From: Burkholderia sp. BCC1644 | Lineage (GTDB): Bacteria; Pseudomonadota; Gammaproteobacteria; Burkholderiales; Burkholderiaceae | Length of the DNA stretch: 64,000 nt | Assembly: GCF_902833225.1 (NCBI RefSeq) | Contig: NZ_CADFEI010000003.1 | Coordinates: forward strand, 186,001-250,000 | Reading direction: 5' to 3' | Part shown: positions 56,954-60,521 of the stretch, in pieces | How the letters are laid out: every line of letters begins with the position of its first letter | Numbering within the stretch: the first letter of the stretch is position 1 | Notes under the pieces: model-generated | Seen by the model: the letters and a program-made list of their open reading frames with translations, nothing else | The model's database searches: none | Told to the model about the DNA's origin: nothing | Program-made: the position numbers and the translations under genes

Positions 56954-57151
56954 TTAATCGTTTAACTCACTTGGTGCATACCCCTATGACCGCCGTCAAC
57001 AAGGGTTTGGGGCGAAATTTGGGGAATCTCTTTCTCTGTTCAGGTGATTTTCAGCGAAACGTTTTCCGGCGACCGATCCGCTTTCACTCCGGACGGCCGC
57101 GCAGCCGCCTTTCGCGATGCCGGACAGCCGGCTTTCACGTTACTTAATTTC

Positions 57152-57164
57152 GTCATAGGATGAC
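57152..57164. promoter_or_regulatory. Second, weaker copy of the dctP palindrome
   Basis: GTCAT-AGG-ATGAC repeats the outer arms of the site at 56915, some 230 bp further upstream, between dctP and the LuxR gene. The 430-bp gap (56828-57257) has no gene. Two related sites could allow looping, but the match is only five bases per arm. Confidence 0.35.
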
Positions 57165-57257
57165 TGACCACAAATCACCCGTGTCGATGCAATGCCCATG
57201 CGTCGGCCCCGCCAGCGGCCGGCAGGGAATCCGCAGGCTCGAGCGCCTGCCGCGCCG

Positions 57258-58349
57258 TCACGTCTGCATGACCAGCGACGTCAGTTGCGCCGCGCGCGTG
57301 ACGTCGGTCTTCGCGTAGATCGCCTTGATCTGCGTCCGGATCGTGCCGATCGACACGCCGCGCAGCGCAGCGCATTCCTGCGGCGAGCGCCCGTCGCAGC
57401 ACAGCAGCACGGCGAGTTCGGCTTCGGCCGACGACAGGCCGTAGAACACGCGCAGCCGCTGCGCGCGCGCCGCCGGCGAGCACAGGTCGGCGGCCGTCAT
57501 CAAGGCCGTGACGCCGGGCCGTTCGCGCACGAGGCGCGACTGCTCGGGAACCGGCATCAGCGCGAGCGACAGCGGTTCGCCCGTCGCACGCCGCAGCAAC
57601 AAGCCACCGCGCGCGAACGCGTGCCGCCATTGCGCATCGTCGACGCAGCCTTCCGGCGCGAAACGCCCGTTCACGATCCGCAGCGCGGGCTCCGCCGCGA
57701 TCAGTTGATCGGCCGCGCGGTTGGTGTAGCGCAGTTCACGTTGCGCGCCGAGCAGGAACACCGGCACCGGAATCGCATCGAGCGCCGATTCCGCCGCGGC
57801 CACGCGCGCCTCGAGTTCGCCGATGCGCGCCTGGATCCGCAGCGCGCGGCTGATATGCGTGCCCATGATTTCGATGGCGAGGCGCTGCTCGTCGGACAGG
57901 CCTTGCGAGTCGGGGCCGCCCTGGACGCTGAGGAATGCGCCGGTGCCCTCGCCGCGATGGATGTACAGGCCCGAGATGCTGCCGAGCCCGAACGGGCGGA
58001 GGAACTCCTGGTAGAACACGCTGTGTGCGCGCTGGTGCGCGGACAGGTGCTTGACGTCCTCGAACCAGCGGCCCGCCGGCCAGTTGCCGGCGACCGGCAC
58101 GACCGGGTCGTACCGGTAGAACTCGGTGTTGTAGGTGCCGTAGCACTCGGCGACCCAGGATTCGTCGTCGCCCGCCGCCTGCTCGATCGCCGGCAGCCTC
58201 GCCGCTTCGTCGAATGACAGCAGCGTGACCATGCGCACACCGACCGACGATCGCAGCCCGTCCAGCACCGCTTCCCATCGTTGATCGCCCAGTGCCGCAG
58301 CGTAGAGGTCGTCGATCCACGCCGATGGAATCACTCCGTTCAGTTGCAT
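57258..58349 (-). CDS. LuxR-family transcriptional regulator with PAS-like middle domain
   Basis: 363 residues. The C-terminal helix-turn-helix (LSSAEAELAVLLCCDGRSPQ followed by ECAALRGVSIGTIRTQIKAIY) is LuxR/NarL-type. The middle (about 190-230, VPVFLLGAQRELRYTNRAA) looks PAS-like, and the N-terminus is a helical sensor with many aromatic residues (ECYGTYNTEFYRYDPVVPVA). No receiver domain is present. It lies upstream of the dctPQM-lactonase operon on the same strand, so it may control it; the operator-like site there looks GntR-type instead. Confidence 0.9.
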   Translation of the reverse strand: MQLNGVIPSAWIDDLYAAALGDQRWEAVLDGLRSSVGVRMVTLLSFDEAARLPAIEQAAGDDESWVAECYGTYNTEFYRYDPVVPVAGNWPAGRWFEDVKHLSAHQRAHSVFYQEFLRPFGLGSISGLYIHRGEGTGAFLSVQGGPDSQGLSDEQRLAIEIMGTHISRALRIQARIGELEARVAAAESALDAIPVPVFLLGAQRELRYTNRAADQLIAAEPALRIVNGRFAPEGCVDDAQWRHAFARGGLLLRRATGEPLSLALMPVPEQSRLVRERPGVTALMTAADLCSPAARAQRLRVFYGLSSAEAELAVLLCCDGRSPQECAALRGVSIGTIRTQIKAIYAKTDVTRAAQLTSLVMQT

Positions 58350-58576
58350 CTGGCTACCCCGCGCCGTGCGTTTTTTGTCGAACGTCTTCAGCGCATCTTA
58401 CTCAATGAACGAGATCGTTCAAATTCTCCATGTGCGTTTGGTTCGAAATACCACGTTTGTTACCGTTTCTCGTCTGATGTATCGGTCATTCCCGACGTGA
58501 ATGCGCAATCGACGTCGGCACGGATCGTGTCGCGGCCGGCTTTTCATCCGGACCACGGTATGCCATGATGCAGCGC

Positions 58577-58657
58577 ATGACGATCCGAAACGCCACGCCC
58601 TCGCTGCACCATCACCACGGCCGCCCTCCATTGCGCCGTGGTTCGTTTCGTATCTAG
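58577..58657 (+). CDS. Histidine leader peptide of an attenuator (four consecutive His codons)
   Basis: A 26-codon frame from ATG 58577 (in-frame ATGs at 58565 and 58568 would lengthen it to 30 or 29) reads MTIRNATPSL, then four His codons (CAC CAT CAC CAC at 58607-58618), then GRPPLRRGSF and ends with TAG at 58655-58657. Four consecutive His codons in a short frame just before a terminator and a histidine biosynthesis gene is the hallmark of his-type attenuation: ribosome stalling when charged tRNA-His is scarce would favour read-through. The ribosome site is weak, so the exact start is uncertain. Confidence 0.8.
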   Translation: MTIRNATPSLHHHHGRPPLRRGSFRI

Positions 58658-58695
58658 TCATTGCATCGGGCAGCGTCCCGATCAAGACGACAACC

Positions 58696-58718
58696 AAGGC
58701 GCCTCCGGCGCCTTTTTT
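58696..58718 (+). terminator. Intrinsic terminator (attenuator) in the hisC leader
   Basis: AAGGCGCC (58696-58703) and GGCGCCTT (58707-58714) form an 8-bp GC-rich stem with a 3-base loop, directly followed by a run of T (six to 58718, then GTTTT). It lies between the His leader stop and hisC. An earlier stem, ATCGGG (58665-58670) with CCCGAT (58677-58682), could be part of the alternative fold. Confidence 0.85.
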
Positions 58719-58779
58719 GTTTTCTGCCGCCTGAAAAACCTGCTGCGCAGCCCCATCGATCACGTACGGAGTGCTTTCA

Positions 58780-59892
58780 ATGCAACAACCGTGGAAAGAC
58801 ATTGTCCTGTCGGATTTGCCGCTCCGGGAGGACCTCAAGTTGCTGCACGCATACGGGGCGCCGCAGCTCGACGTGCCGGTCCGCCTGAACGTCAACGAGA
58901 ATCCGTATCCGCCGTCGCCGGCGCTCGTCGAGCGCATCGCGGCCGCGGTGGCCGACGCGGCACGCAACGCGAACCGCTATCCCGACCGCGACTTCGCCGA
59001 ATTGCGATCGCATCTCGCCGCCTACCTGACGCACGATACCGGCGTGCCGGTCGACGCGACCAGCGTCTGGGCAGCCAACGGTTCCAACGAGGTGATCCAG
59101 CAGATCCTGCAGGCGTTTGGCGGCCCGGGGCGCTCGGCGCTGGCCTTTACGCCCGCGTATCCCATGTATGACGAATACTGCCGAACGACCTTCACGCACC
59201 TGCATACATTGCCGCGCACCGAGGATTTCGCGCTGGATGTGGATCAGGCACTCGCCAGCATCCGCGAACACCGGCCGAGCGTGATCCTGCTGACGTCACC
59301 GAACAACCCGACGGGAACCGCGCTGCCGGTCGACGACATCCGCGCGATCCTCGACCTCGCACCGGGCGTGGTCGTCGTCGACGAAGCCTATGCGGAATTC
59401 CGGCGTCACGGCGTCCGCAGCGCGGTGACGCTGCTGCCCGACCATCCGCGGCTGATCGTGACGCGCACGTTGAGCAAGGCGTTCAAGTTTGCGGGTGGCC
59501 GCGTCGGGTATTGCGCATGCGCGCCGGCGATCGTGGACGCGCTGAAGCTGGTTCGCCTGCCGTATCACCTGTCCGCGCTGACGCAGGCGGCCGCCTGCGC
59601 GGCGCTGGTCGCGCGTGACGAGATGCTGTCGCAAGTCGACGCGATCAAGGCCGAGCGCGACGCAACCGTTTGCTGGCTGCGCGGCCTGGGCCTCGCGGTG
59701 GCCGATTCGGACGCCAACTTCGTGATGTTCGGCAAGTTTGCGGATCGCCACCGGATCTGGAGCGGACTCCTGCGCCACGGCGTCCTGATTCGCGAGTCCG
59801 GGCCGCCCGAGTACCTTCGCGTATCGATCGGCACCGCGGCGGAGATGGCCGCGTTTCGCGCGGCGCTGCTTGATGTGATGACGCCCGGTTGA
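58780..59892 (+). CDS. hisC: Histidinol-phosphate aminotransferase-like enzyme
   Basis: 370 residues from ATG 58780 (GGAG eight bases before). PLP fold-type I aminotransferase: LNVNENPYPPSPALVERI, GSNEVIQQILQAF, SPNNPTG (173-179), DEAYAEF and the PLP lysine K233 in TLSKAFKFAGGRVGY. HisC transaminates histidinol phosphate in histidine synthesis, with aromatic amino-acid transamination as a possible side role. It stands alone, away from other his genes, behind a His-codon leader and terminator, which ties its expression to histidine supply and supports HisC over other aminotransferases. Confidence 0.93.
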   Translation: MQQPWKDIVLSDLPLREDLKLLHAYGAPQLDVPVRLNVNENPYPPSPALVERIAAAVADAARNANRYPDRDFAELRSHLAAYLTHDTGVPVDATSVWAANGSNEVIQQILQAFGGPGRSALAFTPAYPMYDEYCRTTFTHLHTLPRTEDFALDVDQALASIREHRPSVILLTSPNNPTGTALPVDDIRAILDLAPGVVVVDEAYAEFRRHGVRSAVTLLPDHPRLIVTRTLSKAFKFAGGRVGYCACAPAIVDALKLVRLPYHLSALTQAAACAALVARDEMLSQVDAIKAERDATVCWLRGLGLAVADSDANFVMFGKFADRHRIWSGLLRHGVLIRESGPPEYLRVSIGTAAEMAAFRAALLDVMTPG

Positions 59893-59961
59893 GCAACGGG
59901 CACGATCGAAGCGATCGACGACGCAATGGAATGCGTGTCAACGCAGGATCCGACGGTGTAC

Positions 59962-60213
59962 TTACTTCATCGTCGCGAGTCGCGATTCCAGCTCGTCGAT
60001 CTTCGCGAGCACGGCTTCGCCGAGCTTCCTGACGTGACGCGGCACGTCGGGCGCCGACATCAGTTCCTCGAGGCGCCCGCGCCAGTAACTCGGATGCCTG
60101 ACGCGCCCCGCGCCCGACATCGATACGTCGTCAGCGACCGCGTCGCTGTCCAGGAGAGCCACCATTCTCTGGATATGAGAGAGCTCTCGTTCCACATAGT
60201 CTCTTGCCAGCAT
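59962..60213 (-). CDS. Small hypothetical protein
   Basis: 83 residues from ATG 60213, soluble and mostly helical (LARDYVERELSHIQRMVALL, YWRGRLEELMSAPDVPRHVR, KIDELESRLATMK with a coiled-coil look). A GGGGAA about 11 bases upstream is a mediocre ribosome site. I do not recognise the family. The reading frame extends further upstream, but that part looks non-coding. It is convergent with hisC and isolated. Confidence 0.55.
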   Translation of the reverse strand: MLARDYVERELSHIQRMVALLDSDAVADDVSMSGAGRVRHPSYWRGRLEELMSAPDVPRHVRKLGEAVLAKIDELESRLATMK

Positions 60214-60521
60214 ATTGATTGAAATTCCCCGAAATACGACATCAGGCCTTCCGTCATCAACGCGCCATCGTGTCGCGGCGCCAACGACGCGCCGCTCACG
60301 CTGTGCGTCAGCGTACGCAGCGGCTGTGTCAGTCAAATGCGCGGACGAGCGCGGCAATCGACATTCGACGGCAGGCCTGTTCGTTTGTTTTCGTTCCGCC
60401 CAGTCCCCGGTGCCCTGCTGCCAATCGTAGGCGCACCGGCCCGCGCCGGCATCCCCAAAAGTGGGGATATTGGCCGATATCGTTTGCGCGGTGGTTTCCG
60501 GAAATTACGGAGCATGACGGC
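60214..60521. other. Intergenic region with one hairpin
   Basis: About 300 bp without a supported gene. The one clear structure is ATCCCCA (60451-60457) and TGGGGAT (60462-60468), a 7-bp stem with 4-base loop about 55 bp beyond the ankyrin gene stop. It may be a terminator for that gene, although no T run follows on the minus strand. Confidence 0.4.

Follow-up and report, generated by a model that had tools for sequence, protein, structure and literature searches.

The closest described counterpart of the locus reported here is the his operon attenuator of Escherichia coli and Salmonella, in which a leader peptide with tandem His codons is accompanied by alternative terminator and antiterminator structures; the E. 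coli leader carries seven such codons (PMC3896937). Histidine leader peptides are also described before his genes of some Firmicutes (PMC9413887) and, in bacilli, before the hisS paralogues hisZ and hisS* (PMC2965389). Three further pieces of background bear on this locus: in Sinorhizobium meliloti the trpL leader RNA begins directly with the ATG of its leader ORF (PMC7298713); the frameshift site of prfB (RF2) consists of a Shine-Dalgarno-like run, 3 nt, CTTT and a stop (PMC12421855); and a 2016 review states, in the accessible part of its text, that for products of hungry-codon frameshifting 'no examples are known' (PMC5009743).

The DNA analysed is a 64,000-nucleotide stretch of Burkholderia sp. 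BCC1644 (the window). Between 58541 and 58718, 5' of a stand-alone hisC (58780-59892), it has the anatomy of a ribosome-mediated His attenuator, with four His codons compared to the seven of E. coli, and very probably this is a transcription attenuator which reads the charging of histidyl-tRNA and controls hisC. His-type attenuation before hisC had been proposed in a sequence-only reading of the window and is supported here, the leader, terminator and antiterminator being conserved and nothing having been found that refutes it. The choice of a stand-alone hisC as the target also stands, and the two best-scoring other HisC homologues of the genome have no such leader; the attenuator is, however, not unique to hisC, as a dispersed family of it also precedes HisRS-like and GNAT genes.

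Layout of the probable attenuator and its promoter-like element

The features are collected in Table 1. The antiterminator borrows the 3' arm of the protector and the 5' arm of the terminator, giving three helices with two arms in common, and in the duplex fold it extends to about 58648 and about 58687. The 5' arm of the protector begins in the last two His codons, and its bulged base, which is variable, falls at the third position of a Gly codon. The His codons, the small stem, the terminator and the hisC ATG are all found where they had been placed from the letters alone, whilst the leader start had to be moved from 58565: the conserved start is the ATG at 58577, and the ATGs at 58565 and 58568 adjoin the -10-like element and are not kept in four orthologous loci (L031-L034). 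The small stem was considered as the antiterminator and rejected, since it lies inside the loop of the actual one, in which 58633-58643 pairs with about 58687-58702.

Table 1. Coordinates of the attenuator, its target and the related loci (positions in the window)
Feature	Position	Strand	Description
Promoter-leader-hisC block	58482-59949	+	Absent from the 1.1-Mb B. cenocepacia replicon (L203), which has about 152 bp instead; one record
Promoter-like element	58541-58569	+	-35 TTTTCA (58541-58546), 17-nt spacer, extended -10 TGcCATGAT (hexamer 58564-58569)
Leader ORF	58577-58657	+	MTIRNATPSLHHHHGRPPLRRGSFRI*, 26 codons, TAG 58655-58657; predicted leaderless, start at or beside +1
Sensor	58607-58618	+	Four tandem His codons CACCATCACCAC, within leader ORF
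Protector hairpin 1:2	58614-58642	+	ACCACGG-n-CGC (58614-58624) : GCG-CCGTGGT (58633-58642)
Antiterminator 2:3	58633-58702	+	GCGCCgUGGUU (58633-58643) : AACCAaGGCGC (58692-58702)
Small hairpin	58665-58682	+	ATCGGG/CCCGAT; in antiterminator loop (MFE fold)
Intrinsic terminator 3:4 and T run	58696-58718	+	8-bp stem 58696-58714, T6 at 58713-58718
hisC Shine-Dalgarno	58768-58771	+	GGAG
hisC	58780-59892	+	ATG 58780, 370 aa; actinobacterial-type histidinol-phosphate transaminase
HisRS-like loci with candidate frameshift site (outside window)			L148-L155, L157-L160, L162-L164, L169-L171, L173, L177, L178, L189-L194, L197

The combination of four CAY codons, an in-frame start and stop, and a downstream perfect hairpin with a T run occurs at one place in the window, the attenuator itself, and in none of 60 whole-window dinucleotide shuffles. 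The terminator by itself is unremarkable, with one found and 0.8 expected from shuffles of 58200-59000; the RNA from 58577 to 58722 folds with a z of -4.48.

The promoter-like geometry was examined in 52 leaders, those of 26 hisC loci and of 26 of the 32 further loci described below (L154, L172, L174, L175, L176 and L178 were left out), a match being accepted when the second base of its -10 hexamer was A and the sixth T. The best -10-like hexamer ends 6-7 nt before the leader ATG in all 52 (7 nt in the window), the matches mostly having a 17-nt spacer and an extended TG, and the score reaches at least 8 of 13 in 46/52 leaders, a level attained by 0.1% of random positions. A single one of the 52 leader ATGs is preceded by an anti-Shine-Dalgarno duplex of -4 kcal/mol or lower, leaving 51 with no Shine-Dalgarno, and so is every one of the 25 hisC ATGs that were located among the 26 loci. 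This spacing and the absent Shine-Dalgarno predict a leaderless leader ORF, probably transcribed from the leader AUG itself. A stricter scan of 58200-59000 called no promoter, the element at 58541-58569 included, and thus none between the terminator and hisC. A start downstream of 58718 had been named as an observation that would speak against attenuation; the promoter-like element lies upstream of the leader, and we infer the start from it.

The hisC product scores 581.5 bits with NF002877 (cut-off 409) and 294.7 bits with TIGR01141 (cut-off 276.55). It is 57-66% identical to at least 76 actinobacterial loci among the matches listed, compared to 37 and 35% for the next two homologues in its own genome, and as judged by its sequence it is an actinobacterial-type enzyme. 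In a tree of 11 attenuator-bearing HisC proteins, 35 of the 76 listed actinobacterial ones and the two from the same genome, the 11 form one clade (100/100), with a root that is unreliable because the outgroup branches are very long; the identities and the clade agree in suggesting an actinobacterial origin, under the same unreliable root. No run of four CAY codons is present within 300 nt upstream of the match at any of the 76 actinobacterial loci among the matches listed. The flanks of the block that is missing from L203 align to that replicon at 86% (57243-58481) and 83% (59950-60509), so that promoter, leader and gene would have been gained or lost there together. A divergent regulator gene (57258-58349, minus strand), annotated as helix-turn-helix in B. 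pyrrocinia, flanks the hisC block in 21 of 22 genus loci.

Conservation, pairing and the proposed switch

Orthologues of this hisC were found in 22 of 65 genomes of the genus, its own included (E up to 1e-100). A sample of 150 genomes from the family, partly the same as those of the genus set, gave 10 genomes with an orthologue (E up to 1e-80). Together these make 28 loci (L001, L009-L035; L036-L039 are taken as duplicates of L010, L018, L021 and L033), of which 26 with an intact upstream region were analysed. The two that were dropped are L035, which stops at its contig end, and L029 (genome G033), where hisC has no N-terminal part and no leader match; the L029 hisC adjoins the conserved downstream gene and is probably decayed.

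A His-rich leader and a terminator are kept in all 26 examinable regions, and the ATG at 58577 is invariant in the 26 aligned rows. At least three consecutive CAY codons are present in 24/26, the exceptions reading HHRH (L014) and HRHH (L031), and the terminator pattern GGCGCC-N3/4-GGCGCC-T6 is found in 26 of the 28 loci, the misses being the two with no intact upstream region. By eye, L031-L034 have a hairpin of another sequence where the small stem lies. Amongst the hisC leaders and the related leaders of other genes, synonymous CAC/CAT changes are seen together with whole-codon changes in the number of His codons (2 to 5); leader codons 2-10 show no third-position bias, and selection on the peptide encoded there was not seen.

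The arms pair as expected in nearly every sequence. Over the 26 sequences, 95.4% of 260 protector cells and 94.6% of 259 antiterminator cells are paired, compared to 20-55% and 26-49%, respectively, in slid controls. The antiterminator duplex has -18.9 kcal/mol and is also the MFE structure of 58632-58703, and with the letters of arm 3 shuffled, in 40 of 42 alignment rows (L170 and L173 dropped), pairing is much worse, at -10.1 compared to -18.4 kcal/mol for the native arm. Covariation was rejected as proof of the helices: in the 26 sequences the protector shows none above shuffles and the antiterminator none that is significant, because the nearly invariant arms hardly vary, with one antiterminator cell and no protector cell changed on both sides. 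One double change was seen by eye in L161, and arm-swapping permutations equalled the native pairing in 465/2000 cases for the antiterminator and 948/2000 for the protector. Aligning the leaders, which had been suggested as a check, thus bore out the conservation of the His codons, terminator and antiterminator potential, but not a significant co-variation of them.

We infer the working of the switch as follows. Transcription would start at about the leader AUG, so that a 70S ribosome could engage the RNA at its 5' end in the manner of leaderless messages. Given ample His-tRNA, the ribosome would clear the four CAY codons and move over arm 2, and once arm 2 is covered arm 3 would pair with arm 4 and RNA polymerase would terminate in the T run. 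When His-tRNA is short the ribosome would stall on the His codons in or beside protector arm 1, freeing arm 2 to pair with arm 3 as soon as the latter is transcribed; the terminator would then come too late and hisC would be made. Were the leader left untranslated, the protector would form and hisC would be off.

Stalling was simulated in the 26 sequences by blocking the RNA as far as the edge that a ribosome was assumed to have. When it sits on His codon 2, 3 or 4 of nascent RNA that ends at arm 3, the antiterminator pairs with a mean probability of 0.70 or more in 25/26, the exception being L030, and on His codon 1 the antiterminator of L018 drops as well (to 0.19). With the ribosome at the stop position of the window leader, the antiterminator does not exceed 0.11 in any of the 26, nor does the terminator fall below 0.96; as the stop is about 12 nt past arm 2, a terminating ribosome would cover that arm only partly. 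When the nascent RNA is left untranslated, the protector outcompetes the antiterminator in 20/26 (0.93 to 0 in the window) and does not win in L016, L017, L019, L024, L026 and L033. The mutually exclusive folds that had been looked for in the leader region therefore exist, in silico and in nascent RNA, and are switched by the position of the ribosome.

At full-length equilibrium the picture is different. The terminator exceeds 0.5 in 16, 19, 21 and 25 of the 26 with a stall on His codon 1, 2, 3 and 4, respectively, and in the window sequence it stays at 0.71-0.95 despite the stalled ribosome. Since equilibrium favours the terminator even then, read-through would have to be kinetic. The same folds could be taken to mean that the premature terminator is constitutive or vestigial, the His codons and hairpin being conserved by descent after switching was lost. 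The family does contain degenerate leaders (L172, L174, L176), and L030 (genome G105) has lost most of its antiterminator pairing (-10.5 kcal/mol), which is thus predicted to be weak. We nevertheless regard a vestigial terminator as improbable, as most of the 26 sequences, and most leaders of other genes, retain the His codons along with arms 1, 2 and 3, whilst the bulged base of the Gly codon varies. As a further observation on L030, its leader is kept but arm 3 has no AACC, and an A6 precedes its hairpin, which is readable on both strands.

Action of the leader at translation, through hisC initiation or RNA stability instead of termination, appears more improbable still: with its end 122 nt before hisC, the leader ORF could share the hisC transcript, and a trans-acting role is described for peTrpL, the leader peptide of S. 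meliloti (PMC7298713), but it is a terminator with T6 that closes the conserved structures, and the hisC Shine-Dalgarno lies outside them. A non-translated element such as a T-box or ligand-binding RNA, although a His-responsive RNA before a his gene is possible in principle, can be practically dismissed, since no Rfam family reached its cut-off in 57000-60500, where the three matches at E up to 5 include neither the T-box nor His_leader (which we take to be the family name for the enterobacterial attenuator of the E. coli/Salmonella his operon), and since in-frame His runs that vary by whole codons point to a translated leader.

A dispersed family and a candidate frameshift site

A covariance model built from the 26 hisC leaders (R1) was run on 398 genomes of the family and 65 of the genus, and 32 places beyond the first 26 were taken at E below 1e-8. 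A HisRS-like gene follows 22 of these, a GNAT acetyltransferase gene six and hisC one, 29 in all, and at the remaining three (L156, L172, L174) none of these genes is downstream. The HisRS-like gene is in two pieces at L155 and L178, and amongst the GNAT cases L167 is a partial match and L161 has an inside stop. The GNAT loci behind the attenuator (L161, L165-L168, L176) have no obvious link to histidine; the His leader is absent before the Rahnella GNAT relatives L196 and L202. Finding the same leader before three unrelated types of gene suggests that an attenuator can serve as a portable regulatory module. Swapping of leaders between genes was considered, as L032 and L034 group with the HisRS-type leaders, and was not retained as the well-supported branches do not force it. 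Recurrent weak R1 matches of 25-31 bits (L182-L184) lack a His run and were discarded as likely terminators; one further weak match (L180 in G379, 31.9 bits) has CAY runs nearby in a different frame from the translated one.

Two separate stretches of the HisRS-like protein match the hisS model; compared to a solved HisRS, the protein is missing about 76 residues between them as well as the C-terminal part. It was found in 8 of the 65 genus genomes, with an R1 match before it in 8/8, and G008 is the only one of these genomes to have both it and hisC; in a set of 300 genomes of the order it was found in five (E up to 1e-35), with a leader of His codons and a terminator upstream in 5/5. A second model, R2, found three places outside the family in 399 genomes (E up to 1e-6). 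On plasmid pPL1 of Pseudomonas silesiensis (L195) the HisRS-like gene has its own His leader, LHHHQSHCR, and, by eye, a different terminator; a class-wide search for the Pseudomonas-type protein gave 0/229, a count which is uninformative as to absence.

In 28 of 29 Burkholderiales HisRS-like loci (Table 1), the conserved ATG frame runs as far as GGAGC-NNN-CTT-CAY-stop, early in this stand-alone gene, the remainder of which is in the +1 frame; the site is absent from the rearranged L175. The search for the site required CTTCAY near a GAG run, and none of the 28 loci failed it. The stop follows CAY directly in 27/28 (TGA in 19, TAA in 8), L171 having CGA, and the six Shine-Dalgarno-like bases are CGGAGC in 23/28. 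Of the 495 Leu codons in the +1 portions of these genes, 66 are CTT. Before the site, in frame 0, the three codon positions diverge by 18, 14 and 49%; past it, in the +1 frame, the values are 13, 9 and 49.5%, so that both parts look translated, with the frame changing at the site. The read-through product of P. sprentiae L197 matches the hisS model unbroken across the junction (model 3-128), and in Pseudomonas L195 the HisRS-like protein is encoded in one frame. This arrangement is a putative prfB-like +1 frameshift site and a candidate for hungry-codon programmed frameshifting. Slippage at CTT whilst CAY awaits His-tRNA would couple the gene to histidine shortage, an alternative being slippage at CAY-stop; with a His attenuator in front and a His codon after the slippery CTT, histidine shortage may gate the HisRS-like gene twice.

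Comparison with described systems

The HisRS-like site resembles that of prfB in its Shine-Dalgarno-like purine run, 3-nt spacer, CTT with a fourth pyrimidine and nearby stop, and differs from it in having CAY between CTT and the stop and, in 8/28, a TAA stop. If the interpretation is true, the HisRS-like product would be a natural hungry-codon frameshift product, the kind for which the accessible text of the 2016 review gives 'no examples' (PMC5009743), and the gene offers a direct test of whether hungry-codon frameshifting serves cells in producing a protein specific to starvation. Taking these loci together, we lean slightly beyond an even chance towards a histidine-starvation regulon in the Burkholderiales, in which a dispersed His attenuator with a leaderless leader precedes a horizontally acquired hisC, a GNAT gene and a minimal HisRS-like gene, the last with a hungry-codon +1 gate. 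The accessible text of PMC2965389 and PMC9413887 contains no Burkholderiales hisC, HisRS-like or GNAT case, and neither a Burkholderia hisC attenuator nor a His-gated frameshift was found in the literature searched, which was largely that available without subscription.

The leaders of bacilli before hisZ and hisS* are similar in that a His leader peptide precedes paralogues of the HisRS family, although in another phylum, and trpL of S. meliloti is similar in that the ATG of the leader ORF is at the RNA 5' end, as predicted here, whilst differing in being Trp-sensing and alphaproteobacterial. Unlike the his operon of E. coli and Salmonella, the target here is a single stand-alone gene of actinobacterial type, the leader is probably leaderless and copies of it stand before unrelated genes. 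It is in these respects (the leader, the kind of target and the sharing of one module by unrelated genes) that the locus is new compared to known His attenuation, and his-type attenuation is thereby placed outside the canonical his operons.
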